Of a DNA stretch of 64,000 nucleotides, positions 1,361 to 62,700 are shown in pieces. The notes beneath the pieces are model-generated. The model made no database searches. It was not told where the DNA came from and saw nothing but the letters and a program-made list of their open reading frames with translations. Positions within the stretch are counted from its first letter, which is position 1; every line of letters begins with the position of its first letter. This stretch comes from Odiellus spinosus (taxonomy: Eukaryota > Arthropoda > Arachnida > Opiliones > Phalangiidae), in assembly GCA_963920705.1 (NCBI GenBank), contig OY987239.1, positions 12,635,004 to 12,699,003 on the forward strand. The letters run 5' to 3'. The position numbers were made by a program, and so were the translations under genes.

Positions 1361-3653
1361 CCGTTCCATCATACATTAATTTTCTAGTCCCTGTTTTGAC
1401 CGGCGAAATGAGGTCAAATTCGGTCAGTTCAACATCAGGGTCAAGTTGCACGCTTTCGGCGTTGTAATCGTCCCATGCCAGTACCAAATCATTTTCATTT
1501 AACGTATCTATAAATAACAATACAACATGAAGAGTTAATAACGTTTGAATTCAATTTGAGCCTTTTTCAAAAGGTTAAAAGGTCAAATTTAGGGGTCATC
1601 TATAAAGATCTTACGTCATAAAATATAATTATTGGCTTAAGAAGTTAATTGTATCAAATTAATTTTTCAAACAAGATAAAATTAACAAAATTTTACCCAA
1701 AATATTGTAAATTTATAATTAATTATAATTAAATGACGTTAGATTAATGTTATTTTCTTACTAGAGCAAATGATGAGCGGACAATATTGCGTGTCGAGTG
1801 GGAAGTTTCTAACGTCCATTCTACATTCTAAGTCCAGAGTCAACCTGGGAAATAAAACAATAAAGACAATTCAGGCCTTTTTTCAATGACTTAGTGTCTT
1901 ACAGGTTACAAACCTTCCCTAGTACCGCCCGCTAAGACTGATTTAAATATTTTTATAATCTACAATGAAAGTTAGGCCTAATAAGAGTTATTTTTCATAT
2001 AATCTTTATTAAAAAAATATTGAGGTAACTAACCCTTTAAAATATATGTCAAGACGAATAATCAATTAGAAATACTCTATAGCAAACACGCGGATAAAAC
2101 TATTTCCCCTACTTTAACTTCATTGAATTTTCTGCATGAGATATGGATTTTGTAATTATATTAGATACTGATAGATGGCGACTATGTCTCCATAAAATTT
2201 TATTTTCGCTTCATTTTTTCGAAATGTGATTTTTTTTCAAGAATTTCAGACTCTATGCCAATATAAAATATTATTTTTAAATCCAACAAATTTAAAATTA
2301 ATAATAATATTAAAATTAATTACGATAATGCTACTACATTATTTGGAAAGCTTTCGGACACAAAAATTTTAAATTAAAATTAAAATTAATAGACCAAAAT
2401 TAGTTAAATAATTTTCTATTACGGTTGATAGTTAATGAATTCGTAATTATTCGATTATGGTTTTAAATTTAAAATTAGTCAAATTAACAAGTATAATGAT
2501 GTCAAATTAAATTAATAATTAAAATTAATTAATTTTTGTATCATATAGCTTTCTAAAAAGACGAAATTTGATTGGCTAGTATCCCCTTATCTCTACAAAA
2601 CGCGATTCAAAATGATGGGTTAATTAAATTTTGTACGAAAATTAACTTTAATTACATTACCAGAAGCCGATGAAACCCTCCTTTGAAGTCTATTACTCCC
2701 GGGTCTTGTCTACCCCTCTCTGTATGGGTTAGTTTCAAAAAGCGCGATTCGTACGCCTCCTAACGGTAGATATTTTCGGAGCGGGAGTTCGTCGAGCGAA
2801 TATCTCTAGCAGCCTTGGGGTTCGTCAAAAAAACGTCGTCGTTTGTGGAGAGAGAGAATTTCCAATTTTCCGTAGACAGGGGGGATGAAGTAGGACCCCT
2901 TCTAACTCGTAAAATTGTGAATTTTACCCATACAGAGAGGCGCGCTATATCGAACATTAGAGTAGTAGACTTCAAAGGAGGGTTTCATCGGCTTCTGACA
3001 TTACGTAGTGACAGTCTCAGTTACTGACCTTTTAGTGTAGACCAAATTTCCTTCAGGTCTAAGTAAGAATCTAATATTAGGTAATGGTTCATTATGAAAG
3101 TAAATATTTTTTGAGTTGACGAAGAAAAGGTCCGGTTTCCATATTCGACTCTTGACCACTCGGACATCGTATTTTTCTTTGCAATTGTTTGTGCAATTTG
3201 CCGAAGTTTCATTGTATTTGCATCCTTCCGAGTCTAATTCTTCTCCAGACTGTTCCGGATTACATCCTGGTTCAATTGGTTTGTTGTGATGGCAACACGA
3301 CTGAAAATGCAACCTCGAATCATTCCAGGATAGAATGAATTGTACGTCAATTGTGTATTCCTTAATGGAAACAAATTTAATTATAATCATAATATGAAAT
3401 TTGTAATATAATTACGCCCACCATATCAACATCACTGACTGAAACTAAGCTATTGACGTAGATGCTGACCCTGACAGTGGTTGGGGTACCTGTTAAGACA
3501 TTAACGAGAATAATTAGTCAACCTAACCTAACAACAAATGTCCTTTTTATGCCTAAGTATTAGTTACCTTGTTCGTGATCGGGTCTAGTTGAGGAATCGT
3601 ACGTTGAAAGAATTCTTTCCAAGTCGACGTGAATATGTCTGGCTCTCAGCAAG
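1361..3653 (-). CDS. Cys-loop ligand-gated ion channel subunit, partial (5 exons of extracellular domain)
   Basis: Five exons on the minus strand, in transcription order 3568-3653, 3422-3489, 3029-3360, 1762-1844 and 1361-1507, each with AG acceptor and GT donor and matching phases. They read as the ligand-binding domain of a pentameric receptor: YDSSTRP, then IYVNSLVSVSD, EYTID..WNDSRL, WKPDLFF, and the hallmark Cys-loop (two Cys 13 residues apart with FPLD between) followed by NDLVLAW. Exon lengths of 68 and 83 nt match the conserved exons I recall for GABA-A/glycine-type receptors, so an anion-channel-type subunit is likely; a nicotinic-type one is not excluded. Between WNDSRL and WKPDLFF lies an insertion about 30 residues longer than usual with six Cys. 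The signal peptide exon (upstream, above 3653) was not found. The transmembrane exons must lie before base 1. The 1845-3028 intron holds repeat J and a MITE A copy. Confidence 0.88.
1900..2653 (+). repeat. dispersed repeat J, copy 1
   Basis: About 750 bp of AT-rich sequence starting TACAGGTTACAAACCTTCCC that recurs, highly similar, at 46477-47310. It sits in the channel-gene intron. The right end is interrupted by MITE A copy 2 at the sequence ACATTAC. No coding capacity seen. Confidence 0.85.
2661..2997 (+). mobile_element. MITE A, copy 2
   Basis: Full-length copy in an intron of the channel gene, inserted into repeat J. TSD ACATTAC at 2654-2660 and 2998-3004. The unoccupied target is visible in the second copy of J near 47300. 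Confidence 0.95.
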
Positions 3654-8925: not shown

Positions 8926-9706
8926 TCTCGCGTGTTCTGGTTCCCGAAGCAGTTTCTCGAGAAATCGAATCAAATCGATTTGATAAAAGAGGGTTTCGCG
9001 TTCACACGACTAAAGCGAAGCTTTTTGAAATGGTTTAAATCGATTTCAGGCCTAGTATGAACGCGACTATAATACCTTATTACATTTCCTTATTCCATTT
9101 GAATATTGACTTCACGAAATAAATTTTCTTTTATCAATTTTCGTTATTATCTGTTTTTTTCGTACGCCCCATATCATTCCAACGAATTCAATTGTGAAGG
9201 AGATAATTATCTAGTTATATACGCTTACTTTCAATCACTATAGATCATTACAGTTACTTTTAAATAAATTTACGCGATATTGAAGACATTTTAAGCAAGA
9301 ATCCTTTAAGCCTCGGCCTAATTAATTACCTATCATCGTTCAGAAACGGGAATTGACTTCAGTTCAGGTATGCTAATGATATTACTTTGATTCTTACACG
9401 AGATCTGATTGGTTCGTTTAAAATATTGATAATTTAAATCGTAGTAATAGTTAATATTGTCATTGATGTAACTTAACTATTACCAGAAGTCTATATACAT
9501 AAATTTTGGTAGATCTCGCTCAAGAATTAGGTACCAATTTTTATAATTTATAATTATATGAAAAGGTATTTTTTTTTAGGTTTAAATGAAACATAAAATT
9601 CATAATGGCTTGAATTTTAACTTTAACTATTGAAAATATGGAAGGTACGATAAATATTATCCACTATTAAGATTGGAACTTCATTATCTAAGAAGTATTT
9701 GACACG
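8926..9706. other. Upstream region of the 9707 gene
   Basis: AT-rich sequence with no clear TATA or initiator assignment. An in-frame TAA at 9689-9691 lies just before the ATG at 9707, so this ATG is the first possible start unless a 5' non-coding or coding exon is spliced on. Confidence 0.4.
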
Positions 9707-12700
9707 ATGCTAACAGATCCAGGCCCTTCAAGCTCCAACCCGCCAAAGTTGCCTTATGTCAAAGAATTGACCTGGGATGAGGAACTTAAAATTATCAATG
9801 AAAATTTCATTAACGAACTAAAAGAAGAAAAATCGAAAGAACTGCAGTTGGACAGCGTCGAGGCTTTTCCAAAACCCAAGATCTTCGCCCATTTCGCCTC
9901 CAAGGCTTATCAGAACAAGGAAGATGACGAAACTCTCGAACAATTCGAGGAAAGGTTGCAATTACCTGAAGGATGGAAACTACTGACGATGGCCAATAAT
10001 TTCGCCTTTTTGGGAGCCATAAGGGGCTACTTCGGAGCGGTTTTTTGGCATCCAGTCCGTCGTCGGATCGTGATCGCCCATCGAGGAACGGACCCCACAA
10101 ATCTGGACGCGCTACGAGCCGATTTGAACGGAATTCTTCGCAACAAATACGTTAAACAGATGAGAGCCGCTTGCACTTTGACCCACCGAATATTCGAAGC
10201 CGTCAAAGAATGTGAAAAAGATAGAAACACTCATTTCGAAATTTATTTCACCGGTCATTCCTTGGGCGCCTGGTTGGCCCAAGTCACCACGTTCTACCTC
10301 AAGTACATGACGCTGGAAAGAAAGACAATGACCTTTTTGAAGAATCCCCATCCCGATGGTGGACGCCACGCCCACACCGAAGTCTTCGATAGCCCGGGAT
10401 CGAGCGAAACGCTACGGCAAATGGCGAGTGACTTTGACGTTCGTTATTCCGGTAAAAGTACCGACTCGGACCACTTGGACATCACAATCTACCTTTCCTC
10501 GCCCAATTTCGTCAACTGCTGCAACTCGCACGTGGGAAGACTCTATCGCGTTTATCCCAAAATTGAATCCAACGAGTACGTCAAATACACCCTATCTTCG
10601 CATAGTATGGATGGAATTCTGGAAATATTTAATTCTTCGGATACATTTTTGATGAAGGAAGTCGTTGATTGGCCTAAACTTGAACCGTCAGTTTGGCAGT
10701 GGAAAATATGGAAAATACATAAATCAATTTTGGGTAAAGAGTACGAAGACTTTTTCGAGTGGGCCAAAGATTTAAATTACGATCCGAAACCCGAAGACAT
10801 CGCGTTAAAAGTCGCAGCGTCCAAGGACGGTAATGACCGCAACTCTATCTTGGATGAATTCGTGACGATTCGATATCAAACCAAGCCCACCCGCGCGAAC
10901 CAATGCAGCCCGAGTGTATTCTCTGAATCGGAGTTAAAGTTTCTAAGAAATTTCCAACAACTAAAATTTCTACCGAATTCAATTTTTGACGGAGACGAAA
11001 TTAAAAAGAAGACAATTGAAAAGTTGAGGCAATTGGCTCTCGATGATCAGTCCGTCAGCTGCAACGATAACGCCAATATCCGGCAATTAATTCCTTACGT
11101 CAAAACCCTGCTTCGACTTTATCCTGACTTGAATGAGCGAGTTGAATCGGCTTTGACTGATTTCGAGATCAGGAAACAGATTTATCGAGACCTTACCGAG
11201 AGCTACCTTGACAAAATGGAAGGACTAACTGAAATGCTACGGAAACCCGAGTGGTCAAGATTAGACGAGTTCCTAGAGAGCGAAAATCAAGTTTGCCGAG
11301 TTTCGGCAGAGATTGGAACTGATTTCACGGCTGCAAAAGTAATAAAGATCATTTATGCCAAACACCAGGGTTGTACGGTCTTCGCTTTCGAATTGCAAAG
11401 TCTTCTCGGCTTCGAAACATTTTTTCATTTGACAGAATTTATCAGGTCAGAGAAGTTAAATCAGGCTCTGATCTTATTCGAATGTAAATCTGGTTCTTTT
11501 TCAAGTTCAGAAAGTGTAGATTTCGTACAAGGAGTAATTAATCGCGTCGGGGAAAGGTCCGATTTGAAATTAATTTTAATAATTGATAAAAAAGAGGCAT
11601 TTATTTTTAATAACGATTTGGAAAGTATAATTGACGAAGGAATCACGTGGGATGAATTAACCAATGAAACTAAGAAAATCGTAATAAAGAAAGAAGTAGT
11701 TGTATTTCAAGGAAACAAACGTTGCTTGGAAGAACTCCTTTGTCGGACATCGACTAAAATGGATTTAAATCAGTTGGCGGATATTGTAGATGCCAAAACT
11801 CTGGCGAGATTTTTAAGGGATGAGAACGTCATTGTTGGGGAATGTTTAACCAAATCAGGAGATATTTACGTCACACGAAAGTTCAAGAATAAACCTTACG
11901 TAAATGAAACGCTTTTTAAAGATGAATTTCACAAATATTTTAAAAAGAATGATATCATTGCGATTAGCGGGATTAGTCAAATTAATCTTGACGGAATAAA
12001 AAATGAGAAGATTAAGATAATCACATCCGACGAAGAGTTTGAAGAACTATTACGCTCGTATAACGCGGAAAAAAATGTACACTGGTTGAAATACGAATAC
12101 CAATCCAATTCTTACGTCTTCCATAAGACGCGAGGTAGTCTGGATCTCATTCGTAATCATATTGAACGTCAAAAGGTGTTGGAATATTCGGAAGACAAGC
12201 TCTTAGAAATTGACAGAAAAACCTTGATAATATCGGACTTACCTGGAATGGGAAAGACGACTATTCTCTCGGTCTTGGCTGATAAGATTAAAGCGAAATC
12301 CCCCGATCTTTGGGTGGTAAGAGTTAATTTAAACGACTGCACCGAAGCTCTAAAAACCACCACACAATTTAAAACTGTCTCGGACGCTGCGAGATTCCTG
12401 TTGGAACAAATTCTACCTCTCGGCAAAGATACAAAGTTAAACTCGAATTTCGAGAAAAAGTTATTCGAACATGCGTTAATGATTTACGGCGGTGTAGTCT
12501 TATTATTCGACGGGTTCGACGAGATTAGTCCCAATTACGAAGATACCGTAACCAGTTTGTTGGAATCATTACAACGGACGAAGGTGGATCTACTCGTAGT
12601 CACCACCAAACCGCATACCAAACTACGATTGGAAGATGGCTTATCTACTTTATCACACTCGATGGTTCCTTTTTCGAAAGAGAACCGCAAAGAGTTATTA

Positions 12701-15259
12701 ATCGAGATTTGGAAGAAACGATTCAACGGAACTGTGGAGGAAGAAGAGTTGGAAACATACGCCGATGAGTCGAAAGAATTTTTAGAGAAATCGATTAACG
12801 ATCGAGAGAAGAGCTTCTTGGGTATTCCGTTACATTGCGTGATGCTGGCGGATTACGTCATAGAGAAATTTTTAAATCAACAAAAATTGGAAGTCTTACC
12901 TTTATTTGACCTTTACGAAGCTTTTGTACGAAGTAAAATGAACATATATCACGTGGAGAAAGGTGTAAACACGAAAGGTAACGTTCTCGCCGAGAAAATA
13001 AAGGAACGGCAAAATATTGCTATAGAGGATATGCACTGGCAATACGCGCGTAGGCTTATTCTTTCAGACGACACACTGAAGGAGTTTACCGTCACGGATT
13101 ACCAGCAAAAAAAAGAAGAGCAAATTAGTGAACCTGAAATTTTGATGGTTGGATTGATTATCAATACCGGAAATAAACCGAAATTCTTACATAGAACGTT
13201 TGCTGAATTCTTCTTGTTGGATGGTGCCTTGAATCTGGCTAAAAATAAAGAGGAAAACTTACGTAACTTAACAATTTTATCGACAGAAATTCTCCTGAAA
13301 AAAGAATTCAACATAGTTCGTACTTTTCTCGAAAGTTTGATTAAAAATAAAAATAGACAAACTGAAACGAATAACTTTTTACAAAGCTTCGTAGAATTTT
13401 GGTTAAAAAACTGGTCCACCAATCGAACCGTTTGTTTAAACACGGATGGGGGAACTGTATTACATATACTTCTAGATGAACGTCACTTTTACACGATTAA
13501 ACTATTTTTAAATATTACGCTTGAAACACAAAAAGCTTCGCTTTCGGTTAGAAATGGAAATTTCAGTCTAGTTCGATTGTTAACCGGGAAAATTTCCAAT
13601 ATTGATACGCCTAATGAAAATCAATCAACGCGTCGAAAAAACAAAAGCGCTAAAATCTTTGACGCTAGAGATTATAATAAACGGACTGTCATACACATTG
13701 TTTTGAATCTCGCGCCAAAAAAAGATAAATCTGGATTATATAAAGAGATTATTCAACTCCTTCTTGAAAATGGCGCGAATATTGAAGCGAACCATGACGA
13801 TGGATCATCTCCTTTAATAAAGGCATCGTCAGAAGGACATTTAGACATCGTTAGCCTTCTTGTCGAAAACGGGGCAAATATCAATGCCATCGATAATTCC
13901 GGAACAACTCCTTTAGGAGTAGCTTCGTTCGAAGGACATAAAGATGTCGTTGCCTTCCTTCTCCGAAAGAAAGCCGCTATTGACGAATCAACTCAGTTTC
14001 CAAACTTTTCTTGCCTCCTTTTCCAAAAAGGTTCAAACTTCAATAATAAACACGAATCAACTTCTCCTTTATTAAAAGCTTCATTTAAGGGACATTTGGA
14101 AATCGTTGACCTCCTTATCGATAATGGCGCGGACATTAATGCCAGGGATACGGATGGATCAACTCCCTTAGAAAAAGCTTCGTCTGAGGGACATCTAGAG
14201 GTCGTTCGCCACCTTCTCGATAAGAAAGCGAACGTCAACGCCAAGGAAAAACACGGATCAACTCCTTTAATAGAAGCTTCTTATAAGGGACGTCTAAAAG
14301 TCCTTTCCGTCTTACTCAAATATGGCGCGGATATAAATGCCAGTGATGATGATGGATCAAGTCCATTAGGAAAAGCGTCGTCCGAAGGACATCTTGACGT
14401 GGTTTGTCACCTTCTCGAAAACGGAGCGGATATTAATGCCAGCTGTGGACAAGGATCAACTCCTTTAATACAAGCTTCGTCCGAGGGACATCTCGAAATT
14501 GTCCGCCACTTACTCGACAATAAAGCGGACACGAATGCCAGGGATAAAAATGGATCAAGTCCTTTAATAGAAGCGTCTTATAAGGGACATCTAAACGTAA
14601 TTGACCTCCTGCTCAAAAATGGAGCGAATATCAATGCCCGTGATAACGATGGCTTAACATCTTTAGGGAAAGCTTCGTATTATGATAAGCGAGACTCCGT
14701 CACGCTTCTTCTGAAGAAAAACGCGGACGTAAATGCCAGTGATTGTCAGGGAACTACTCCTTTAATGATTGCATCATCCGCTGGACATCTAGAGATAGTT
14801 CGCCTCATTTTAAACCATATTGGAGATAATAATGATTCAATTTATTTAACAAATTCATCTAGTACGCTAATGTCAAAAGAAGCCAGTGTAAATTCTGTCG
14901 ATAATTTTCCTTGGTCACCTTTGCATTACGCTTCCGATAATGGTCACTCGGATGTGGTTCGCCATCTTCTAGATAATAAAGCCAACGTCAATGTCCTCGG
15001 ACTTAATAATTCCACACCATTGCACTTAGCCTCCAAATCGGGTCATTTGGAAACGGTTCAAATATTATTGGACAAAGGAGCCAATCACGTGGCCAAAAAT
15101 AGATTTAATAAAACGCCTTTAGATCTCGCTATTAAATACAAACGAGGCGAAGTAATTCAACTATTAATATCAAGACGAAGAAAATCCAATATCGAAAGAA
15201 ATTCATGTTCGAGAAAAATAGAAGAAATAGAGAAAATAGAGAGAGAGACAATCGTTTGA
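9707..15259 (+). CDS. Lipase-NACHT-ankyrin repeat protein (NLR-like), 1,850 aa, intronless
   Basis: A single uninterrupted ORF. N-terminal third: lipase class 3-like alpha/beta hydrolase, with oxyanion-region HRGTD at residues 125-129 and nucleophile elbow GHSLG at 183-187 (Ser185); a conserved SSHSMDG segment near His299 may give the catalytic His. Middle: NACHT-type STAND NTPase with Walker A LPGMGKTT (Lys850; the usual first Gly of the loop is Asp844) and Walker B VVLLFDGFDE (930-939). C-terminal third, about 1320-1830: roughly 13 ankyrin repeats (SSPLIKASSEGHLDIVSLL type), one or two degenerate. No signal peptide or membrane helix, so intracellular. By analogy with NLR/STAND proteins the ankyrins would sense a ligand, NACHT would oligomerise and the lipase would be the effector; that role is inference. 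An in-frame stop at 9689 supports the start. The lack of introns contrasts with its neighbours and suggests retroposition or rapid duplication. Confidence 0.92.
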   Translation: MLTDPGPSSSNPPKLPYVKELTWDEELKIINENFINELKEEKSKELQLDSVEAFPKPKIFAHFASKAYQNKEDDETLEQFEERLQLPEGWKLLTMANNFAFLGAIRGYFGAVFWHPVRRRIVIAHRGTDPTNLDALRADLNGILRNKYVKQMRAACTLTHRIFEAVKECEKDRNTHFEIYFTGHSLGAWLAQVTTFYLKYMTLERKTMTFLKNPHPDGGRHAHTEVFDSPGSSETLRQMASDFDVRYSGKSTDSDHLDITIYLSSPNFVNCCNSHVGRLYRVYPKIESNEYVKYTLSSHSMDGILEIFNSSDTFLMKEVVDWPKLEPSVWQWKIWKIHKSILGKEYEDFFEWAKDLNYDPKPEDIALKVAASKDGNDRNSILDEFVTIRYQTKPTRANQCSPSVFSESELKFLRNFQQLKFLPNSIFDGDEIKKKTIEKLRQLALDDQSVSCNDNANIRQLIPYVKTLLRLYPDLNERVESALTDFEIRKQIYRDLTESYLDKMEGLTEMLRKPEWSRLDEFLESENQVCRVSAEIGTDFTAAKVIKIIYAKHQGCTVFAFELQSLLGFETFFHLTEFIRSEKLNQALILFECKSGSFSSSESVDFVQGVINRVGERSDLKLILIIDKKEAFIFNNDLESIIDEGITWDELTNETKKIVIKKEVVVFQGNKRCLEELLCRTSTKMDLNQLADIVDAKTLARFLRDENVIVGECLTKSGDIYVTRKFKNKPYVNETLFKDEFHKYFKKNDIIAISGISQINLDGIKNEKIKIITSDEEFEELLRSYNAEKNVHWLKYEYQSNSYVFHKTRGSLDLIRNHIERQKVLEYSEDKLLEIDRKTLIISDLPGMGKTTILSVLADKIKAKSPDLWVVRVNLNDCTEALKTTTQFKTVSDAARFLLEQILPLGKDTKLNSNFEKKLFEHALMIYGGVVLLFDGFDEISPNYEDTVTSLLESLQRTKVDLLVVTTKPHTKLRLEDGLSTLSHSMVPFSKENRKELLIEIWKKRFNGTVEEEELETYADESKEFLEKSINDREKSFLGIPLHCVMLADYVIEKFLNQQKLEVLPLFDLYEAFVRSKMNIYHVEKGVNTKGNVLAEKIKERQNIAIEDMHWQYARRLILSDDTLKEFTVTDYQQKKEEQISEPEILMVGLIINTGNKPKFLHRTFAEFFLLDGALNLAKNKEENLRNLTILSTEILLKKEFNIVRTFLESLIKNKNRQTETNNFLQSFVEFWLKNWSTNRTVCLNTDGGTVLHILLDERHFYTIKLFLNITLETQKASLSVRNGNFSLVRLLTGKISNIDTPNENQSTRRKNKSAKIFDARDYNKRTVIHIVLNLAPKKDKSGLYKEIIQLLLENGANIEANHDDGSSPLIKASSEGHLDIVSLLVENGANINAIDNSGTTPLGVASFEGHKDVVAFLLRKKAAIDESTQFPNFSCLLFQKGSNFNNKHESTSPLLKASFKGHLEIVDLLIDNGADINARDTDGSTPLEKASSEGHLEVVRHLLDKKANVNAKEKHGSTPLIEASYKGRLKVLSVLLKYGADINASDDDGSSPLGKASSEGHLDVVCHLLENGADINASCGQGSTPLIQASSEGHLEIVRHLLDNKADTNARDKNGSSPLIEASYKGHLNVIDLLLKNGANINARDNDGLTSLGKASYYDKRDSVTLLLKKNADVNASDCQGTTPLMIASSAGHLEIVRLILNHIGDNNDSIYLTNSSSTLMSKEASVNSVDNFPWSPLHYASDNGHSDVVRHLLDNKANVNVLGLNNSTPLHLASKSGHLETVQILLDKGANHVAKNRFNKTPLDLAIKYKRGEVIQLLISRRRKSNIERNSCSRKIEEIEKIERETIV

Positions 15260-16171: not shown

Positions 16172-19100
16172 ATGAGTTTAATTAAAATAACCTTAATTAC
16201 ATTTATTTTAACTACCTCACGAAGTAATTGCCAAAATACTGGTATGTGGTTTTTGATTGGTTTCATATTTAAGTTTTTAATGAGTTAAAATTGTTTTTAG
16301 GGTAAAATGGTCCTTTAAATTAATAAAACACCCTATTTCTTCTCAGACAAACCTCCGGATGTTCAAACTTATAGAGCAGTTGGCGAATTAGTTGCCTTGA
16401 ATGACCCTAATACGGACAAACATACGAATTTGCAAATATTATTCGAAGAAAATTATGATTCTGTCGCTCAAAGATGCTCATTAACTGTAACCATATTGGA
16501 CCAAGAGATTACAATCGTCGAATACATTGCGCTCAAACAAATGTTCGTCTATATGAAAGGTAAAAGTCAAATTATAAGTCAAATCAGAGGTATATAATAA
16601 CCCCCTTCGGGGGGAAGTATGAAAGCCCCTATACTACCAATGCTAAAAATCTCGAACAACGAGAGCCCGCTGCTGACTATCTAGGCCACTAGCTCGCGCT
16701 GGACTTCTCAATGTCGCTACTCTAGTAAATGGTCTTTGTATAAACAAGACGGCTCGATTTGCGTTTAGAACTTCCTGTCTCGGGAGTCAGGCTGTCCGTT
16801 AAAATGGAGTCGAAGGTTGACTTCGGCTCGCGAGTTCCGGAAGCGCGCGTAGGGAAAATTTAGTCAGGTTCAAAATGGTGTAACTATTTTTTGGGAGTAA
16901 AGCGGCGTGTCGATCCGCCGCGATTTACGCCGGGCACTCGTTGTTCGTCGATTTTGCCTACCTTTCATACTTCCCCCCGAAGGGGGTTATTATATACCTC
17001 TGGTCAAATCCATTGTTATACTAAGCTTTGGAATCGATTTGAAATTGGTTCCCGAAGCAGTTTCGAGAACTCCGTTTAAATCTTAATTTTGGTTAGGTTT
17101 GAAGGCTTGTCAACCGTTTTCACCGAGTGATTTTGAAGCCAGTAACTTGGCACCAATTCATTTAAAAAGCCTTATCATTAAAAACGGAAGCGCAATATTT
17201 CCCGTTCGACAATTACTTTCATTGTCCAAGGACGCAATCGCAGTTGGTAAAACTGTCTATAGAGACATACCAGCTCAAGCTTGGAACTTTAAGATTCACG
17301 ATGGACCTGATAATGCCATCGAAATTAGTGCATATTGGTCATCAGGTAAGGACAACAATGGCTAACTTAGTTCCAAGTACGACAAAAGATGTCTTGCCAT
17401 ATCGATGGGAAATGAACTTTGACCCTAAATAATAATTTTTATCGTCGAATCAGATTATATTTAACTAGAAATAAATTTGAAATAGGCTTAGCTGGATTCA
17501 TTTCGATCAGGTGAATTGAAGGGTCATAGGTCAATCGAATGTTATTGGAAATCTCATCAAGATCTCGCCTTAACTATAGAGCTCGGAATTGGAATCTTCC
17601 GTATATTTTCAGATATTTTATTTTCGGATAAATTGTTCGTAACTAAAAAAATGAAATTTCTATATTCGTATAATTGTTAAATGGTTTACCCCAAGATAAG
17701 CCTTCGCCGCTTTATCTACCTACAAATTACTCAGTTTTCAACACGTATAACGATGGATAATTCGCGTTTCCAGAGTCTAAAATATAAGAAAAAATTTCAA
17801 ATTAACTTTTAATTCGAAGGATAGAAATAAAACGATAAGATTTTAAATCATCTTTTTATTCGTTATTTTTCACGGAAAATAAATTTTGAATATTTTTTAT
17901 CCGAACGTATAACTGGATAATATTCTAAGAAGGCCATTTTTGGATAATAAAAACGGATATGGATTAGGTTTTGTTACTTTATCTTCGTATAAGTTAACTC
18001 GAATGAAAATTAGTCTACGTTTTAATCAAATATATAATATACATCAGAATTTAGTAGACTTTATCCAATTAATAAAAATGATACGAATTCCGAGCTCTAA
18101 TAAAGTGCAATATTTATTTTGTCGATCCATTGATTTTACTCTACTCCAGGGTTGCCACAGACCTGGAAAACCTGGAAAACCTGGAAAAGTCAGGGAATTT
18201 CAAAATTGGTATAAAAAGTCAGGGAAAAGTCAGGGAATTTTAAAATTGTCCAAAGGTCAGGGAAAAGTCAGGGAATTTTCATATTATCCAAAAATAAATT
18301 TCTGGAATCTCATAGTATGGATTCAGTTAGACCAGGGAGGCTTCCATAAATATGTGGAAAAATTTATTATATGGGATCAGAGCCTTCCAAACATTTATGG
18401 AAAGTCCCTATTGAGAAAAGCACGTTATTTATGAATACTTTCTCACAGTATACTGTCTAACAGAACACCTATTTTTGGGGAGAGCTGATTCACACTAGGG
18501 AGACCACGGACCGTGTATATACCGGACGAGAATTCGCCAGCCTTCCACTGTACAAAAAAACTTCCCCGAGCATTGGGCTCGGAAGCGAGAGAGAAAATAC
18601 TCGTACAAGGTCATTTTTTATTATTTCTCGTGACTCTTGTGTCACGTGAGAGCGAAATTTCAAAATGGTTATCCTAGCGATTTAAAGACACGCGCCAATT
18701 TGAATTTAATAAATGACCTTGTACGATTATTTTCTGGGCTCTATTGAGAGTCGGTGCACGGGGCAGAAAAACGCTTGCTTTTCTCGTCCGGTATATACAC
18801 GGTCCGTGGGGAGACCTCCCACGCCAATCTCTACCAAATCTTGGAGTTCCCATTCAACGCAAAAAGGAGTTTATATAGTCTTCAAGAGGAGTTACTACTA
18901 ATTTAAACCTTTAAATTGGTCAGGGAAAAATGGTATAGATGGTCAGGGAAAACCTGGAAAAGTCAGGGAATTTTGTTATGGAAAATCTGTGGCAACCCTG
19001 TACTCGTTTGACAAGTAATTTACTGTGGTAACTTGATACATGATTTCCCAGATAATTACACGTCACCGTCGAAAACTAAGCAGGTGCCATTGGGATATCA

Positions 19101-22100
19101 AATAAGAAAAATGCTATTAAGCGAACAAAATGCAATTTATAGTGTCAATTTCTATCTATTTACTCATGATGAATTTGATATAAAAGCTTTTGAGGTAATT
19201 AAGTAATTAGTAATTACGTAATCTGGAAAAACATATGTTCAGAGTTTTAAACACGTGTTGAAATTAAAAACACGAGTGTTGGCAAAAGTCTATGACTTTA
19301 TTGCAAAAAAGTAAACAACTCCCTGTTCAGAATTGTCTGAACAATGTTTTGAGGACTGTTTTACCATGGTATCTCTACTTCCGGTTGCAAACCCTCCATT
19401 TTCATGGCGTTTTCTAGCCCCCACGTGGTATTTACTGCGATGGGCGTAAAGACCCTAGTCCCGAATTTCCTGATGTGTCAAAGATGGAAACTTTGGCTTA
19501 CAAGAGCGAATATGTCTGGGAAGATTATAAAACATTCTCAGCCGTTGATGTAAGATATCGTAATTTTAATTATTTATTATCGTGTTTAAATAATGTAACC
19601 AGCGATTTCTTCCGTGTCCGCAATTAAAATTCGGTTGCGTCCTCTTCTTGACAATCCCTGGCTGGTAAACAGTCTTAGCCAATAGGAAGCGTTCTTTCCT
19701 CTGCTGGGAAACAATCTTTAGCCAATGGGAGACGTTCTTTTCCCTGGCTGGTAAACAGTCTTTAGCCAATGGGAGACGTTCTTTCCCTGGTTGCTAAACA
19801 GTCTTTAGACAATGGGACGCTCTTTCCCTGGCTATGAAAAGCTAGTCTTTAACCAATAGGAAGCGTTCTTTCCTCTGCTGGGAAACAATCTTTAGACAAT
19901 GAGAGACGTTCTTTCCCCGGCTTGTAAACAGTCTTTAGCCAATGGTAGACGTTCTTTTCCCTGCTTGTAAACAGTCTTTAGCCAATGAGAGACGTTCTTT
20001 CCCCCGTCTGGGAAACAGTCTTTAGCCAATGGGAGACGTTCTTTCCCCGTCTGGTAAACAGTCTTTAGCCAATGGGATGAAGCCTCGTTATTAGAAGAAA
20101 TTCTACTTCACTGGTTACATTTTTGAATACGCAAAACTGAGAAACCTTTGCCCAGCTCAATAATTGAAATTGGATTAATTTCAATACAGTCTTGGATTGA
20201 CCCCTTGACCCAAATATATCGTGTTGATATGATTCCATCAGCCGCGTTTAACTTAAACCCGAAAGACATTTCAAGAATCGTCTCCAAACCACAGGGTAAT
20301 TTCTTTTAATTTCATTTTTCCCAATTAAAGTGACAAAAAACAAACAAATTAAAGAAAACACTATTTAAATTTAATTTCTAGGGGTATATTATGATATCAC
20401 TAAAGGCTCGAATGAAGGCTGCATAGTTTCGCCCATTTCAGAGGCACAATTTGACCCTCAAACAATTCTAGACTTTCGACAAGATAACTTAAATATCAGC
20501 TCATTTTTTGGATTTAATTCAACCAAATATTACCCCATTGGAAAGGTAAATTTAAATTTATTTTGTGTTGGGAAAAAATGCGAAATCACGTGACGATAAT
20601 GCTGACGTAGATTGCGGGGAATTTTTAGTTTAAAAATTTGTTCTATTTGATATCAGAGGTATATAATAACCCCCTTCGGGGGGAACTATGAAAGGTAGGC
20701 AAAATCGACGAACAACGAGTGCCCGGCGTAAATCGCGGCGGATCCACACGCCGCTTTACTCCCAAAAAATAGTTACACCATTTTGAACCTGACTAAATTT
20801 TCCCTACGCGCGATTCCGGAACTCGCGAGCCGAAGTCAACCTTCGACTCCATTTTAACGAACAGCCTGACTCCCGAGACAGGAAGTTCTAAACGCAAATC
20901 GAGCCGTCTTGTTTATACAAAGACCATTGACTAGAGTAGCGACATTGAGAAGTCCAGCGCGAGCTAGTGGCCTAGATAGTCAGCAGCGGGCTCTCGTTGT
21001 TCGTGATTTTTAGCATTGGTAGTATAGGGGCTTTCATACTTCCCCCGAAGGGGTTTTTTATATACCTCTCAATTTTTATTTGGAGTTGATAGAAGATTTA
21101 TAGTTCAAAGTTTCCATTTAATAATTATTGTAACTTGATATTTTTAAACTTTATATTTGCCATGATGGGTCATTTTTTTATTATTATCGTAGACATCAGA
21201 TAGAGGTATACCTTGCGTTTTATACCACGGTATTCGAACAGACTGGCCCACGGTGGAAACCAATATCAAAACTCTTTGGGAATGGTGTATTTCCAACGAT
21301 AAGGTAAATACAATCTTGTAAATTATTATTTAGGCCTTGGCCTTTTTTTTTTTCATTTAATATTTTTTTTCCTATTCTTAGAATGTTATACTAGACTTCC
21401 CGAAAGATAGATATCCAATAATTAGTTTAAATATTTACGTTAAAGAGGTAGGAATTAAATTTAATTTTCATTTTATTAATTGGTATCAAATATTCGCCTC
21501 CATTTATTGAAGTTTTTTTAATGTTAGAGTCCGTACACTGAAAGTACCGGAATTTTTTACCAAGGCCTACAATTTACGCATCATTTTCATAACGCAAAGT
21601 CATTGAGTTCTAAATATATGGATGCCGCCTTTTTCGATATCAGAGATTGTTTTGAGGTGACGAACGTAAAAGAATTAGCGTTCGTTGTTGATGGTGAGTT
21701 TTTTTTTTTAGCTACCAGGGTGACCAGGAACAAAATAGGAAATTTAAAGGCGAATTTTAGGAGAAAATAGGATTGAAATTTAATATTATAGGAAATGTAG
21801 GATAAATAATAACGAAAATATAGGAAAATATAGGAGAAATAACAGGGAATTTATAGGAAAAATAGGATATGGTTTAATTTAATGTTGATTTAACCTTTTT
21901 ACCACATCAAAATCTTAATCTTTGACTCGATACTTTTGGTGTGAATTTTTATTTTTAAGAAATTTTAAATAGGAAAATATAGGAGAAAACCTTCAATTAT
22001 AGGAATTTATAGGAAATATAGGAAGTCTGGTCACTTGAAATCATTTGTTTCGGCCTATTTTGATGGTGTTTTAAATTTATTGGTGTTTTACTGTTGGTTG

Positions 22101-23000
22101 AATTCACCCTTTAAGAAGTTAGTTTTATTTTTTAGCCCCTGGTGACGCGTTAGAATCTTTATCCAATCAAGAGAGAGACCCTGATTTTGTCGGCGGTTGG
22201 AAATACGCTGTTATTTCAGCTGCTAATTTAACCATATCTTCAATGAGAGTTTCAGGTCTTAGAGTGGTAAATACTTTTACAATTTTGTTTTCACTTTTAA
22301 ACAAATCTTCCGATGGTTTATTTACAATGTTTGATATCGGACCATTTGTTTGTTTCTTTAAAATGATAGACGGGTCAAAACTCCGCATTAAGGGTTAATT
22401 TTGCACTCTTGGGTCGACACCCAAAACTACCAGAAAGCTCCCAAGAAAATACCTTAGATGAATCTTTCAACGCTTTGAAGTCTGTCATTGATTCCGGGAA
22501 TTTGAAGCTTAATTTCACTTTGGATGTTGCTGGCAAGAAAATGGTAAGTCAAAACTCTGTCAAATTCACAAAGGGTTGGGATCATACGTGTTTCAAATAT
22601 TTTTACCCATGTTTTGAGGGGTTCTTTGGTGATTTCTTAACAAAGATGAATAGAATAGATGAGTGAACTCATTAACTAGATTGTACTTGTCCCAAATGTA
22701 CTCTCGTACTTGTCCTTAATGGTCTCTCGTACTTATAGATTAGGTTAGGTTTTCTTCTGGTAAAAACTCTTTCAAATTTCTTTTTTCCTCAATGGCGTGT
22801 AGGCCCTTACTCTCTCGGCAAAACCAGGTTCTTTGACTAGTCGTATAAGGATAGACGATTACGACGCGCCATTGACTTACTCAGCTGGCGTCATGGCCGC
22901 TGTCGCTTTCATTATGCTCTTGTTAGGGTTAGCAGTTGGTGCCGGTGGTGTCTATACCAGATACATTTATTTCAAAACCACGCAACAAAGACTGGATTAA
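16172..23000 (+). CDS. Type I membrane protein with probable LolA-like modules, 656 aa, 13 exons
   Basis: Exons by splice sites and by alignment to the paralog at 23969-29578: 16172-16241, 16347-16559, 17097-17345, 19052-19194, 19418-19549, 20142-20295, 20382-20545, 21193-21303, 21382-21447, 21528-21693, 22136-22266, 22370-22543, 22803-23000. All phases agree and the total is 1,971 nt. Exon 1 gives a signal peptide (MSLIKITLITFILTTS). The ectodomain has repeated modules with conserved Cys and the motif PRGIYCDGRKD, followed later by RGIPC and LWEWC. This resembles LolA-like domain proteins of invertebrates, a family call that is moderately sure. Exon 13 supplies one membrane helix (about residues 616-641) and a short tail KTTQQRLD. 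Introns hold MITE C (twice), repeat F, elements H and I, a 43-bp tandem repeat and element E. Function unknown. Confidence 0.82.
16585..17002 (-). mobile_element. MITE C, copy 1
   Basis: A 418-bp element with long TIRs starting CAGAGGTATATAATAACCCC, each containing its own small hairpin (CCCCCTTCGGGGGG). TSD GTCAAAT at 16578-16584 and 17003-17009. It sits in intron 2 of the plus-strand LolA-like gene. The interior is in reverse orientation relative to copies at 20654 and 32922. Confidence 0.94.
17577..18098 (+). mobile_element. TIR element F, copy 1
   Basis: Bounded by AGAGCTCGGAATT and its complement AATTCCGAGCTCT. The interior recurs inverted at 31619-32429. Located in intron 3 of the plus-strand LolA-like gene. 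No TSD can be seen with confidence and no ORF of transposase type. Confidence 0.7.
18147..19000 (+). mobile_element. TIR element H, interrupted by element I
   Basis: Ends CAGGGTTGCCACAGACCTGG and TCTGTGGCAACCCTG. Subterminal parts are runs of the short motif GTCAGGGAAAAGTCAGGGAA. Possible 5-bp TSD TACTC (18142-18146, 19001-19005). Truncated relatives lie at about 46410-46470 and 53022-53190. Confidence 0.75.
18505..18808 (+). mobile_element. MITE I nested in element H
   Basis: 304 bp with TIRs CACGGACCGTGTATATACCG and its complement. TSD GGGAGAC at 18498-18504 and 18809-18815. The TIR itself begins with a palindrome (CACGGACCGTG). Confidence 0.88.
19657..20085 (+). repeat. ~43-bp tandem repeat with CCAAT in every unit
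   Basis: About ten diverged units of the form AACAGTCTTTAGCCAATGGG followed by AGACGTTCTTTCCCTGGCTGG, in intron 5 of the plus-strand LolA-like gene. Units vary in length between 41 and 48 bp, so the array is old. Confidence 0.85.
20654..21069 (+). mobile_element. MITE C, copy 2
   Basis: Near-complete copy in intron 7 of the plus-strand LolA-like gene, inserted in a repeat D copy (D sequence 20570-20653 on the left, D-like CAATTTTTATTTGGAGTT on the right). The last G of the right TIR and the TSD are missing, and D sequence between the flanks is absent. A deletion accompanied or followed insertion. Confidence 0.88.
21716..22036 (-). mobile_element. TIR element E, diverged reverse copy
   Basis: Begins CAGGGTGACCAGG and ends CTGGTCACTTG, with the interior purine-rich motif ATAGGAAAATATAGGA, the complement of the E interior. 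Inside intron 10 of the plus-strand LolA-like gene. Shorter and more diverged than the copies at 855, 49011 and 50889. Confidence 0.7.
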
Positions 23001-23968: not shown

Positions 23969-26900
23969 TTAAATTCTTTGATATTTTGAACGAATGAAAT
24001 AAGTAATTATCATCCCAGATATAATTCCAGCAATCAGGGCCATACATAAATACACCACGAAATCATTGGTGACAATGGTGTTATTATTTTTTTGCAATGT
24101 GTCCGGTTTTTCGGCCGAATACTCTCTGAAGTAAATGCCATTCGGTGTTGCCATGAAGTGCGATTTTTCAATCATGTCAAGTACTTGTAATTGAGAGTAA
24201 ATAGATGATTTGTTGGTACTGGGAGGTGGTTTGACTTTAACTTGTAGTTGTAATGTACCGGGAATCGCTCCTAATTGAATTACCTAATTAATATAGAAGT
24301 AGAAAAAAAGAATAGAATTTTTTATCACGGAAAATTGTTTAGGCCTAATTAATTATTTGTGTTAGTGATTAGAGATAAGAATATATAACGGGTTAATCCA
24401 CCGAAAGTTTGACCCACATTTTAGCATATAACAATAAGATTAGATTACCTTTTGTCCAATTTTCCAGTTGATTTTAACTTTACCCTGGTCAATTGCTTTT
24501 TCAAGTCGCATTGTAACATATTGTAGCTCTTCTTCTTTAATTCGTATGTTTCTGGGTAATTTTGGGTGTCTCTCTAAGAGTGTAAAAGTGACCACCATTG
24601 GTTTTCGGATCTCTGGAACGTTCTAAAGTATACAAATTTACCCATAAAAACGTAGAAAGGAGGTGAATATGATTTTAAATGTCAGACATCGGCCCTGACA
24701 AATACTTGTAATATCTTTCCTTTGAATTAAGCTATGGACATGATTATTTTTGCGTAAAAAAATATGGTTTTTTAGACACATTTAGAACTCAGTTTCGGCT
24801 TTTTAAGCCTATTAGATTTTACGCAATCTTAATTTTAACAAAAGCTATGATAGTGTCAAACTCTGAACGGCCTTATGTCAACATTCTACTAATACTTGAA
24901 TATCTTCCGTTTGAATTAAGCGTAAAAAAATATGGTTTTTTAGACACATTTAGAACATAATCTCGGCTTTTTAAGCCTTTTAGATTTTACGCAATCTTCA
25001 TTCTAACAAAGTGTTCAGGGCAAAAGTGTTCAAAGTGTTCAGGGCAAAAGTGTTCGAAAGTGTTCGAAAGTGTTCGAAAGTGTTCGAAAGTGTTCGAAAG
25101 TGTTCGAAAGTGTTCGAAAGTGTTCGAAAGTGTTCGAAAGTGTTCGAAAGTGTTCGAAAGTGTTCGAAAGTGTTCGAAAGTGTTCGAAAGTGTTCGAAAG
25201 TGTTCGAAAGTGTTCGAAAGTGTTCGAAAGTGTTCGAAAGTGTTCGAAAGTGTTCGAAAGTGTTCGAAAGTGTTCGAAAGTGTTCGAAAGTGTTCGAAAG
25301 TGTTCGAAAGTGTTCGAAAGTGTTCGAAAGTGTTCGAAAGTGTTCGAAAGTGTTCGAAAGTGTTCGAAAGTGTTCGAAAGTGTTCGAAAGTGTTCGAAAG
25401 TGTTCGAAAGTGTTCGAAAGTGTTCGAAAGTGTTCGAAAGTGTTCGAAAGTGTTCGAAAGTGTTCGAAAGTGTTCGAAAGTGTTCGAAAGTGTTCGAAAG
25501 TGTTCGAAAGTGTTCGAAAGTGTTCGAAAGTGTTCGAAAGTGTTCGAAAGTGTTCGAAAGTGTTCGAAAGTGTTCGAAAGTGTTCGAAAGTGTTCGAAAG
25601 TGTTCGAAAGTGTTCGAAAGTGTTCGAAAGTGTTCGAAAGTGTTCAGGGCAAAACACTCTGAACGGCTTCTAACTCCGTACACCAATAATAATTACTTAC
25701 AGTTCTTACTGAAGTTACCCTTAAAGAGGTTGGATTCAAGACCGTTGTATTAGTGATAGCCGATTTCCAGACGCTGTTGAAATAAAAATTACTTGTTTCG
25801 TTGGTTATGGCTTTTTCAACATCTGGACTTACTGCAATAGAAAATAATATTCTTTATTTCATTTTGATATAATTAAATTAGTTTAAATATTAGTACATTT
25901 GACTTGAAACTGCATTAACGCGCGATGATTGTCAGAGAAACAAGGTGTTATGTCAAAAACCATTGTATCCAAATAAGCCAAATCTGGTTTTCTAACATTA
26001 TAAAATTGGTATGATAGCTGACTTCCTTCAAATAACCAATCAATGTCCGACGTTTTATTCAAATTGGTGACTGTTATCCTTAAACTGACCAATGGTAGAC
26101 TATTTCCTAGGTACGTTACGTTCTGTTGAATAATTAATACAGGTAAAATTATCGTAAAATAAATTTGATACGTAAATTAGAATAATTTTGTTATGTTGTT
26201 ACCTGACCATCTGCTAAGCACCATTCCCAAACTGAGGTAATTTCATTGTCTTGAATACCGGGCGGCCAGTTGTTACGAACTGTTTGATAGATTGCGCAAG
26301 GAATACCCCTTTCTGTAGTCTGCAATTAATACACCAAAAGTTAATTAATTATATTAATTAAACTGAAAATAAAGAGGTCATGTTGAAGCTCTGTCCACCA
26401 CAATTGAAGTATTATTATTATTATTATAAGTGTGTACTCTTCATGACGTGATCCCCTATTTATTACAACTCGTAGAGTTCGTACCATTCCAGTTTTGACG
26501 TACTGAAATTTGTCAGTTCCGAATAAACCCTTCAAGGTGTAGGAATTAGGATTGTTATGATCTATGATGAATTCAGGCAGAAATTTAAATCTTTTCAAAT
26601 CATCTTCTACTGTCTCTGATTTAGTCTTAGTTGTATCGTCCAATGGATAGGAGTAATAAGCACCTGTGTATTTAAGAATAGGCCAATCAGTGCAAGGTTT
26701 CGTGCAGTGAAAAATTAAATTTAAGCCTAACCTTGTTCGGCTGTAAAAATTGTGCGTAATGTTGTTACAGATATTTGTGGTTCTTCACGGATGTATTTAT
26801 CAACTTGGACTAATTTTCTAGTAGTGTCCATCCAAAACTGTACCGAAATAGAGTTAGTGGATAGAAGATTTGAAGATTTATTCTCTGAAATAAATAAGTT

Positions 26901-29578: not shown

Positions 29579-30045
29579 TTTTTGACAATATTGGTGTTCA
29601 TACGAGTTAATGGAGTTAGTTACACCTCCAGAAAAATTCCATTGTGTTTTGAGCTTAACTTTGTTCAAAGAGGAACTGCATAATCTTAATCGGCAAAATT
29701 TGTCTATAACAATGCGAAATCCAAATATCTCTTTCACAAGTATTCAAGATTAGATTAAAAACTACTCTTGTATTGTTGCTAATGATCTACAAAAACAGGT
29801 TAACACTTATTAGTATATACAAAGTTGAATAAACGCTAAGAAAAATTAATATTCGGGTCACAAGGGGTCAAGTAATGGACATAAACCTAAAAAAATTACA
29901 ATTTTCAAACTAATTTCACAAAATATTATCATAAGTCTAATTATTCATCCATAACTCATTCCTGTTGACAGGATATCCTAGCATTCATTGGGAGAGGTTA
30001 AAGCTACCACAACTAGATGCATTAGAGTCGCGAGATTAGCCCACC
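29579..30045. other. 5' flank of the minus-strand LolA-like gene
   Basis: AT-rich with no recognised element. It probably holds the promoter and 5' UTR of the gene starting at 29578, but no core motif can be assigned. Confidence 0.35.
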
Positions 30046-30052
30046 TTAACAC

Positions 30053-30389
30053 CAGAAGCCGATGAAACCCTCCTTTGAAGTCTATTACTCCCGGGTCTTG
30101 TCTACCCCTCTCTGTATGGGTTATTCTCAAAAGGCGCGATTCGTACGCCTCCTAACGCTAGATATTTTCGGAGCGATAGCTCCTCGAGCGAATATCTCTA
30201 GCAGCCTCGGAGTTCGTCAAAAAAACGTCGTCGTTTGTGGAGAGAGAGAATTTCCAATTTTCCGTAGACAGGGGGGATGAAGTAGGACCCCTCCGATCTC
30301 GTAAAATTGTGAATTTTACCCATACAGAGAGGAGCGCTATATGGAACATTGGAGTAGTAGACTTCAAAGGAGGGTTTCATCGGCTTCTG
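30053..30389 (+). mobile_element. MITE A, copy 8
   Basis: Full-length copy, TSD TTAACAC at 30046-30052 and 30390-30396. The interior has several changes, including TTATTCTCAAAAGG for TTAGTTTCAAAAAG. Confidence 0.94.
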
Positions 30390-30471
30390 TTAACACTAAA
30401 ACGACCGTAGTTTCTAACTTACGGGTGAATTAATAGACTTATGATATTATATTATGATAATTTAACATAGT

Positions 30472-30763
30472 CAAGAAGGATCAGATAAGGAGAGGAAAAG
30501 TGGGGCTGCGTTGAGTTAGAGAGAGAAGAGCCAACCTCCCACTCGGGTGGAAAGGGGGGATAGGAAATTCTCGAGGTAAACTGTTGTCACGTGGTCGCTA
30601 GCTAGCGCGTCTCGTAAAGGATTCGTTTTACCCACGTGACAACAATTTACCACGAAGCATCTCTACCCCCGTCTGTCCCTCGTTCTCCCAGAGTGGGAGT
30701 TTAGGCCGACGCGGTAGGAGCCGCGCCGTTCCCACTTTTCCTCTCCTTATCTGATCCTTCTTG
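30472..30763 (-). mobile_element. MITE B, copy 1, at the end of a coding exon
   Basis: 292 bp with TIRs CAAGAAGGATCAGATAAGGA continuing GAGGAAAAGTGGG (33 bp). Imperfectly palindromic through to a centre GCTAGCTAGC. TSD ACATAGT at 30465-30471 and 30764-30770. The other copy is at 47936. Confidence 0.94.
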
Positions 30764-32730: not shown

Positions 32731-32884
32731 GTTGAACTTTCAATTACACCAAACATTGAATTGTTCAAATGATAAACTCAGTATAAGCTTTAAATTACGA
32801 ACAAAATAACCGCGCCCATAATTGGTGTGGGTTGGTTGATTGGAATTTGCTAGTAGGTAGATTTTTGTCAATATAAAATGCTTA

Positions 32885-44170: not shown

Positions 44171-44232
44171 GTGAGTTTAAATCATTATTTGAAGTTAATT
44201 ATTTAAGTATAATTAGTGTTTAAATATAAATT

Positions 44233-60576: not shown

Positions 60577-61220
60577 CCGATTGCCCTGTTGTGTGTGGTT
60601 AACACTTCAAAACTAAATATGTACAGCCTTGTTGAGTGAGCTATATCACGCTTCAGAAATGATACCAAACCAGCCTTGTCGTGTGGGCTTAAAAACACGC
60701 CGCGGTGCAGAGAAAACACATGTTGCGGGGCTGCCGCACCTTCAGCAAGTGCGTGACGACGACTGCATTAATGTGCGCTGTCTGCGCCGCGCGATTTTTT
60801 CCCTCCGGATCTACTTTTTTTGTATCCCTCCGCCATTTTCATCCTGTTTTTAGGATGTTTTCTACTTTAGTACTATTACAAAATCACTCTCTTTTATCAA
60901 TCTTTCGATTTCTTATTATATCAATCTTATTAAATCAATCTTAGTATATATATATAATATATCTATATGTATATAAATATATATATGTATAATATATATA
61001 TATATATAAAACATCCTAAAACCAGTATATATACATACTGGTTTTAGGATGTTTATATATATATCCCTCCGCCATTTTCCTCCTGGTTTCAGGATGTTTT
61101 CTACTATATTTATTATTATTTCTACTGTTTAAGTATTATTACTACTCTTTTAGTATTATTACTACTACAAAAAAATCAAAGTATCTAAGATGATACTTAT
61201 TATAGTAGTGTAGTTTCAAT
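60577..61220. other. Spacer with two copies of a CCTCCGCCATTTTC segment and an AT hairpin
   Basis: CCTCCGCCATTTTCATCCTG at 60829 and CCTCCGCCATTTTCCTCCTG at 61067 flank a (TA)n region. 61009-61055 is a perfect hairpin, AACATCCTAAAACCAGTATA with its complement. No gene. Confidence 0.5.
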
Positions 61221-62600: not shown

Positions 62601-62700
62601 ATTTTATATATGGGGGTGTATTTATTTTTATTTCAATTTTATGCGGGTGTATTTATTTTTATTTCAATTTTATGGGGGTGTATTTATTATTTATTTTAGA
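62601..62700 (+). repeat. Junction between S7 and S8
   Basis: Three units of GGGGGTGTATTTATTTTTAT mixed with S7-like TTTCAATTTTATG, in S6 orientation, before the array inverts at about 62700. Confidence 0.75.

Follow-up and report, generated by a model that had tools for sequence, protein, structure and literature searches.

The window, by which we mean the whole 64,000-nt stretch of Odiellus spinosus DNA that was analysed, carries on its plus strand an uninterrupted frame of 1850 codons (9707-15259). Our ORF scan of the window therefore agrees with an earlier sequence-only reading, which had described a single 1850-residue ORF. The same reading took the gene to have no introns, and this part has to be given up. 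In the upstream DNA of the paralogs the arrangement ATGGAAG/GT...AG/ATCC is conserved, with the acceptor AG directly ahead of the DPGPS codons. From this conservation we predict a first coding exon of 7 nt, ATGGAAG (9638-9644), which ends in phase 1 and recurs in the paralogs as ATG-short-G/GT, a GT-AG intron of 72 nt, also in phase 1 (9645-9716), and an open main coding exon including the stop codon (9717-15259), all on the plus strand. The ATG at 9707 would lie inside the intron and it is not conserved, as four of the six closest copies have ATG at this position and two have ATA. The predicted spliced product has 1849 residues and starts with MEDPGPSSS; residue numbers given below follow the ORF. 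By eye, the short-exon arrangement was found in 12 of 20 displayed loci, divergent ones among them, and in five of the six closest copies; at the remaining eight displayed loci it was not seen within the stretch shown. Several paralogs also have introns in the lipase domain, five of them near residue 240 (three of these also near residue 88) and some others near residue 141. These are in phase 1 wherever the junctions are readable.

Since the predicted first intron is visible, in the same phase and place, at 12 of the 20 displayed loci, we rejected a retrocopy. A bacterial gene inserted at this locus only was rejected as well, because the gene is part of a spliced multicopy family on long contigs. 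The sole ARAGORN match in the window, a tRNA-Glu at 10109-10200 on the minus strand, was treated as chance since it falls inside the coding exon and the window has no Rfam match at gathering scores. When viral contigs were searched, the whole protein gave no confirmed relative and the lipase alignment A1 gave two weak ones. No relative was found in phages with residues 1-1281, and the search of plasmids with residues 1-398 gave one Mbeg1-like match.

Elsewhere in the window, a frame at 3001-3408 on the minus strand resembles an exon from a ligand-gated ion channel gene (Neur_chan_LBD, E 3e-9). Mutually similar short frames with transmembrane-like ends, as from related multi-exon genes, occupy about 16319-23000 on the plus strand and 24000-32740 on the minus strand, and the six of them scanned with Pfam gave no family above cut-off. 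At 34143-36655 on the minus strand, an LRR frame (LRR_8, E 1.7e-17) is followed by a Ser/Thr/Pro-rich frame of the same strand, which contains a 57-nt tandem repeat in 16 copies, and then by a hydrophobic stretch; the arrangement suggests a membrane protein that bears LRRs on a mucin-like stalk. Two plus-strand frames at 44230-45663 probably represent exons from the gene for a class II tRNA synthetase, with the tRNA-synt_2b core (E 9.7e-32) in the second and none in the first. Judging by its look, the gene is probably that of mitochondrial seryl-tRNA synthetase. Very large short-period tandem arrays fill 39101-43987, 53553-56328, 57535-59783 and 61219-64000, two with a period of 20 nt (244 and 139 copies) and the others with periods of about 26-33 nt. 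Some of these arrays leave several frames open over more than 900 aa, which are artefact ORFs.

We searched the 443-Mb assembly of 286 contigs for further copies, and all locus counts are lower bounds. The lipase region gave 43 matches, grouped into at least 29 loci, and the NACHT region gave 32 matches in at least 29 loci. At least 28 loci carry both, one carries the lipase only (C11:21.23 Mb) and one the NACHT only (C10:1.13 Mb). The count of paralogs, proposed in the sequence-only reading, thus shows a multicopy family with at least 29 lipase loci. The loci are clustered, and 14 of the 25 on contigs of entered length lie near contig ends (within 15%). At 18 of the 29 lipase loci a stop-free matched piece sits within a frame of 1365 aa or more. 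Stops occur in four near-identical copies (C33, C107, C231 and C275), and the copy at C1:3.2 Mb is interrupted. The four represent a divergent lipase-NACHT gene with different exon breaks, perhaps through a recent segmental duplication or as haplotypes. The Pfam NACHT model gave at least 33 matches in the genome, part of them in other kinds of genes.

Two further observations concern the assembly. Nine of the 12 COX1 matches outside contig C286, which was taken as mitochondrial, are on contig C17, and mitochondrial COX1 and COX2 are adjacent with only the stop codon between them. Among five 800-base contig-end stretches, the end of C1 is a pure TTAGG array, one has a single doubled TTAGG among TCAGG-like repeats, two have no TTAGG and one is N throughout. 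Taken together, these features suggest an arthropod, perhaps one that is neither insect nor crustacean.

The protein almost certainly consists of a lipase domain, a middle region, a NACHT domain and ankyrin repeats, in this order. All three domains that had been read from the letters were recovered by the Pfam profile search above their cut-offs. Lipase_3 (PF01764) matches residues 155-208 with 26.0 bits in the whole protein and 28.9 bits in the N-terminal piece alone (cut-off 22), NACHT (PF05729) matches residues 846-1001 with 35.3 bits in the whole protein and 40.0 bits in the piece (cut-off 26.7), and ankyrin families reach E 2.3e-95, above the curated cut-off. Pairing of the two locus lists places lipase and NACHT together at 28 of the 29 lipase loci, and this recurrence of the domain order means that the architecture is beyond chance.

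The class 3 lipase-like (RLip-type) domain covers residues ~53-327 (9863-10687, plus strand), as delimited by Pfam, NCBIfam, profile-profile comparison and the structure model. It is assigned to class 3 lipases (PF01764) by the score above the Pfam cut-off, the GXSXG elbow and the serine of that elbow, which is present in all 29 loci. The structure model of the domain (pLDDT 78, pTM 0.83) matches class 3 lipase structures in the VIA-align list and so has the class 3 lipase fold. Patatin gave no Pfam match in the protein pieces at E up to 5. The GHSLG nucleophile elbow with Ser185 (10253-10267), pointed out in the sequence-only reading, is there, and its serine is also found in 17/17 rows of alignment A2. 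His299 of the SHS motif (10601-10603), the candidate catalytic histidine, is conserved in 27 of 29 tblastn-mapped rows and 16 of 17 A2 rows; in the separate alignment A1, eight of 11 rows have the histidine and three lack it. The candidate catalytic acid, Asp228 of FDSPG (10388-10390), is aspartate at 26 and glutamate at three of the 29 loci, and aspartate in 17/17 A2 rows. Asn267 of SxPN (10505-10507) is asparagine at all 29 loci and in all 17 A2 rows.

Judging by the strand order in the model, Asn267 sits approximately where class 3 lipases carry aspartate, and Asp228 is positioned one strand earlier. The triad is probably Ser185-Asp228-His299, with the acid placed after the strand preceding that used by fungal class 3 lipases. 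We propose that Asp228 replaces the usual class 3 acid in catalysis, as the position of the latter seems to be asparagine throughout. The lipase domain keeps a full set of candidate catalytic residues, and the check around Ser185 gave the conserved serine, histidine and acidic residue of a candidate triad. In plants, EDS1 uses a lipase fold for binding a small ligand or a partner and not for catalysis. Our protein could be a pseudoenzyme adaptor of this sort, which would have kept the fold for such binding, but we find this unlikely with Ser185 invariant, His299 nearly so and Asp or Glu at position 228 in 29/29 rows. The related RLip is, moreover, described as an active lipase that needs its serine in the available text of PMC12507273.

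Between the putatively active lipase and the NACHT lies a conserved middle region (residues ~335-835; 10709-12211, plus strand) with a mean column identity of 43% over the 13 rows of alignment A3. For these ~500 residues we found no Pfam family in the window's protein and no PDB match. Across the 13 middle-region members Pfam gave four families, each in one member only (best E 0.016). The NACHT domain (residues 846-1001; 12242-12709, plus strand) has related NACHT regions in 29 loci, and the NACHT and ankyrin statistics are based on fewer loci than those of the lipase. Its Walker A motif, Asp844-LPGMGKT (12236-12259), has the lysine conserved in 24/24 loci read. The unusual aspartate at the first Walker A position had been noted before as a feature that could alter nucleotide handling. 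It is present, but it is not peculiar to this protein: of the 25 loci readable at position 844 (four of the 29 rows have a gap), 20 have Asp, three Glu, one Ala and one Gly. Asp844 is a family rule and does not mark out the window protein. In the Walker B region, LLFDGFDE (residues 932-939; 12500-12523), D935 and D938 are conserved in 16/16 and E939 in 15/16 of the loci read, while 13 of the 29 rows have no sequence there.

The ankyrin repeat array (13673-15199, plus strand) shows 14 repeat anchors, of which the first is degenerate. The earlier count of about 13 therefore stands for the clear repeats and misses one degenerate first repeat. The sequence-only reading had also spoken of high mutual similarity and recent turnover of the repeats. 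Tandem periods of 99 and 198 nt are present inside 14064-14652, and ten of the 13 repeats are closer to another place in their own gene (62-82%) than to the best place in the nearest paralog, with the last three as the exception. When all seven paralog sequences are pooled, seven of the 13 repeats find a paralog match at least as good as their best in-gene one. Since the best in-gene DNA match per repeat is only 44 to 82% across the 13 repeats, these comparisons indicate a real turnover in the array's middle part, which is however incomplete and not very recent, and the high similarity had been overstated.

Pairwise dN/dS by domain was 0.18-0.66 for the five closest full copies and for the window against one more distant copy, with the lipase part of C18:9.63 left out and that of C18:9.66 compared over 185-187 codons only. 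Against the nearest copy, 266 kb away, the values were 0.44 for the lipase, 0.52 for the middle region, 0.41 for the NACHT and 0.57 for the ankyrin part. There was no sign of positive selection, as every domain-level dN/dS computed was below 1, which indicates purifying selection among the close copies compared. Synonymous divergence from the nearest copy is 0.23 for residues 1-100, 0.07-0.15 for residues 101-700 and 0.27-0.35 for residues 701-1100, and beyond residue 1100 it is at least 0.6 and once undefined (blocks with enough codons). This pattern points to conversion or exchange in the 5' half of the gene, and the repeat half is diverging. A multicopy birth-and-death family with little function, in which many copies exist, some broken and some as near-identical blocks on other contigs, would account for the stops in C33, C107, C231 and C275 and for the interrupted C1:3.2 Mb copy. 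It would hardly account for a dN/dS of 0.18-0.66 in the domain comparisons, long frames at 18 of 29 loci, or the conservation of residues and of the first intron, and we consider it highly improbable.

We favour a functional switch. As far as can be told from its sequence, the protein is a STAND (NLR-like) switch of an arthropod, probably a cytosolic one. A single chain holds a NACHT bearing Walker A and B motifs, an effector domain at the N-terminus and repeats at the C-terminus, which places the protein in the NACHT class of STAND/NLR-like proteins. It falls outside the strict definition of an animal NLR, which asks for an LRR sensor together with CARD, PYD or another death-fold effector: Pfam detected neither LRR nor death-fold families in the whole protein (E up to 0.1) or in its pieces (E up to 5). 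The STAND/NLR-like layout, first read from the letters, gains support from the family-wide conservation, the class 3 lipase fold and the purifying selection among close copies.

Fungal NLR-like STAND proteins, in which NACHT or NB-ARC is combined with ANK, TPR or WD repeats, resemble it in the N-terminal lipase, central NACHT, C-terminal ankyrin repeats and repeat turnover, as far as the available text of PMC4986451 and PMC12258605 goes, and there the enzyme as direct effector is likewise a proposal. The fungal effectors named in these texts are sesB-like and patatin domains, whereas the window protein has a lipase of the class 3/RLip type, belongs to an arthropod and contains ~500 conserved residues of no recognised domain between lipase and NACHT. 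The nearest precedent for the function is provided by the fungal NLRs that carry lipase effectors. Outside the fungi, the available text of PMC4986451 has single mentions of NLR-like proteins with enzyme effectors for moss and coral, a sesB-related putative NLR in a bryophyte and coral PNP_UDP NLRs, the latter being an earlier animal case of an enzyme-type N-terminal domain. In other animal NLRs (LRR/CARD/PYD and coral PNP_UDP), too, a NACHT switch separates the effector at the N-terminus from the repeats at the C-terminus; the window protein differs from them in its lipase effector and ankyrin sensor, with no LRR and no death-fold domain found. The word 'lipase' is absent from the available text of the placozoan NLR paper (PMC6321704). 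Among titles and abstract openings, mostly without subscription literature, we found no report of a lipase-NACHT-ankyrin protein in an animal, which does not prove absence, and an immune role of such a protein in an animal has no direct precedent in the literature searched. The plant proteins EDS1, PAD4 and SAG101, which act as signalling heterodimers, are immune lipase-like proteins without NACHT or ankyrin in the same chain.

The strongest lead is the relation of the animal lipase domain to those of lipase-NB-ARC-TPR proteins of symbionts and to the secreted Rickettsia RLip. With the animal lipase alignment as query, the search through genomes of bacteria and archaea gave 37 relatives, a biased sample since the search patterns were built on the animal family. 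Judged by their titles, the strongest belong to Rickettsia endosymbionts of two insects (presumably beetles), to Amoebophilaceae, and to one MAG each of Rickettsiales and of a proteobacterium. Two named Rickettsia species rank lower, and the weakest relatives include Bacillota such as Metabacillus and Streptococcus. Of 16 bacterial proteins analysed with Pfam, 12 have NB-ARC (E 0.001 or better; nine above cut-off) and TPR after the lipase. L070 shows no NB-ARC at the threshold but does have TPR and a match to DUF7779, L068 has an ankyrin match below cut-off, and L072 and L001 have the hydrolase alone. In the lipase-NB-ARC-TPR proteins of the Rickettsia endosymbionts and Amoebophilaceae (L066, L071, L073, L067, L069, L074-L076, L079, L080) the homologous lipase precedes a STAND NTPase and repeats, with NB-ARC and TPR in place of NACHT and ankyrin and without a counterpart of the middle region. 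In profile-profile comparison of the animal and symbiont sides, the lipase reached probability 100 (E 7e-50) and the NTPase 94.6% (E 7e-8), against 1% for the middle region, where no counterpart was found. L074, L075, L076 and L079 carry their lipase further inside the chain, with several hundred residues ahead of it. The Amoebophilus protein L075 has a Ulp1-type peptidase match ahead of the lipase (residues 384-540 in a frame scanned from 1331; 26.2 bits, cut-off 20.7), which would suit a host-directed protein, and a RickCE-like match, also ahead of the lipase, below cut-off.

The NCBIfam model Rlip (NF052630) matches residues 86-293 with E 5.6e-9 and 35.4 bits, below its cut-off of 440; by this measure the window lipase domain is a relative of the RLip lipase domain and not a member. 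According to the available text of PMC12507273, RLip of Rickettsia is an active, serine-dependent GXSXG lipase; it is toxic to yeast as well as to mammalian cells, and the cytoplasm of the host is where it is released. The two proteins have the related domain at residues 86-293 in common, whereas the window protein adds NACHT and repeats, for which the secreted bacterial RLip is too short with the 353 aa given there.

In the lipase tree of 43 rows, one clade unites the animals (SH-aLRT 87.1, bootstrap 88) and a separate one the remaining symbionts (95.6/100), under a root (L083/L084) of our own choice that does not settle the direction of transfer. The tree omits the near-identical animal copies C33, C231 and C275 as well as the distant rows L001 (misaligned), L085, L086, L088, L090, L093, L103 and L104. 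Four symbiont or MAG genomes gave 4, 2, 8 (Amoebophilus) and 2 matches, two of the first four being pieces of one frame. In the taxonomic order of L066, 17 of 105 genomes matched at 1e-15, with scores over 300 bits in four and stops in several; in that of L067, the only match among 118 genomes was the genome of L067 itself. Frame lengths indicate that the model had taken rows from three or all four of the strong positives in the first order and from the sole positive in the second.

This distribution bears on another reading, in which the domain came from or went to an intracellular symbiont and the family controls resident bacteria, by vacuole rupture or by keeping their population in check, and is not a general death switch. 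The arthropod endosymbionts and Amoebophilaceae at the top of the bacterial relatives by title, the eight matches in the Amoebophilus genome and the patchy spread over both orders (17/105 and 1/118) would suit it. Still, animal and symbiont rows form separate clades, the middle region is not common to symbionts and their NTPase is of another class, so to us this reading seems rather unlikely. We tentatively suggest, at slightly less than even odds, that a lipase effector module passes, in one direction or the other, between the immune switches of arthropods and the STAND proteins of their intracellular symbionts.

Our main reading, to which we give a rough probability of 0.55 for the whole mechanism, is that the protein acts in the manner of an NLR and has an enzyme as its effector. 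A trigger would bind to the ankyrin repeats together with the middle region and thereby release autoinhibition. The NACHT would then exchange nucleotide and oligomerise, and the lipase domains, brought together or uncovered, would cut membrane lipids. As an outcome, the infected cell might be killed or the membrane round an intracellular bacterium damaged. Since the lipase module is common to the symbiont lipase-NB-ARC-TPR proteins, a membrane or a bacterium within the cell would be the likeliest setting, and we infer a role in immunity or cell death. Speaking against this mechanism are the dN/dS values, which show no sign of positive selection, the asparagine that seems to occupy the usual place of the class 3 acid throughout, the two of 29 rows without the histidine (three of 11 in A1), the glutamate in place of Asp228 in three of 29, the lipase locus without NACHT and the NACHT locus without lipase, and the several copies with stops. 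The weaker ankyrin result against the seven pooled paralog sequences and the lack of a direct animal precedent in the literature searched count against it as well.

To our knowledge, the best-studied arthropods are generally said to lack NLRs. A lipase-effector family of at least 29 loci in an arthropod would widen the known abilities of animal NLR-like receptors. RLip is a working lipase with an assay, which can also serve for the activity and the trigger of the animal protein. If the proposed movement of the module is true, an animal NLR family took a membrane-breaking enzyme of symbionts as its warhead, or symbionts captured an immune effector of their hosts. Arthropods would then possess a lipase-armed NLR lineage whose triad variant is common to the animal and symbiont sides. 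The shared module links host switches to proteins of intracellular symbionts, and it raises the question of whether the same enzyme is used against the same membranes on both sides.
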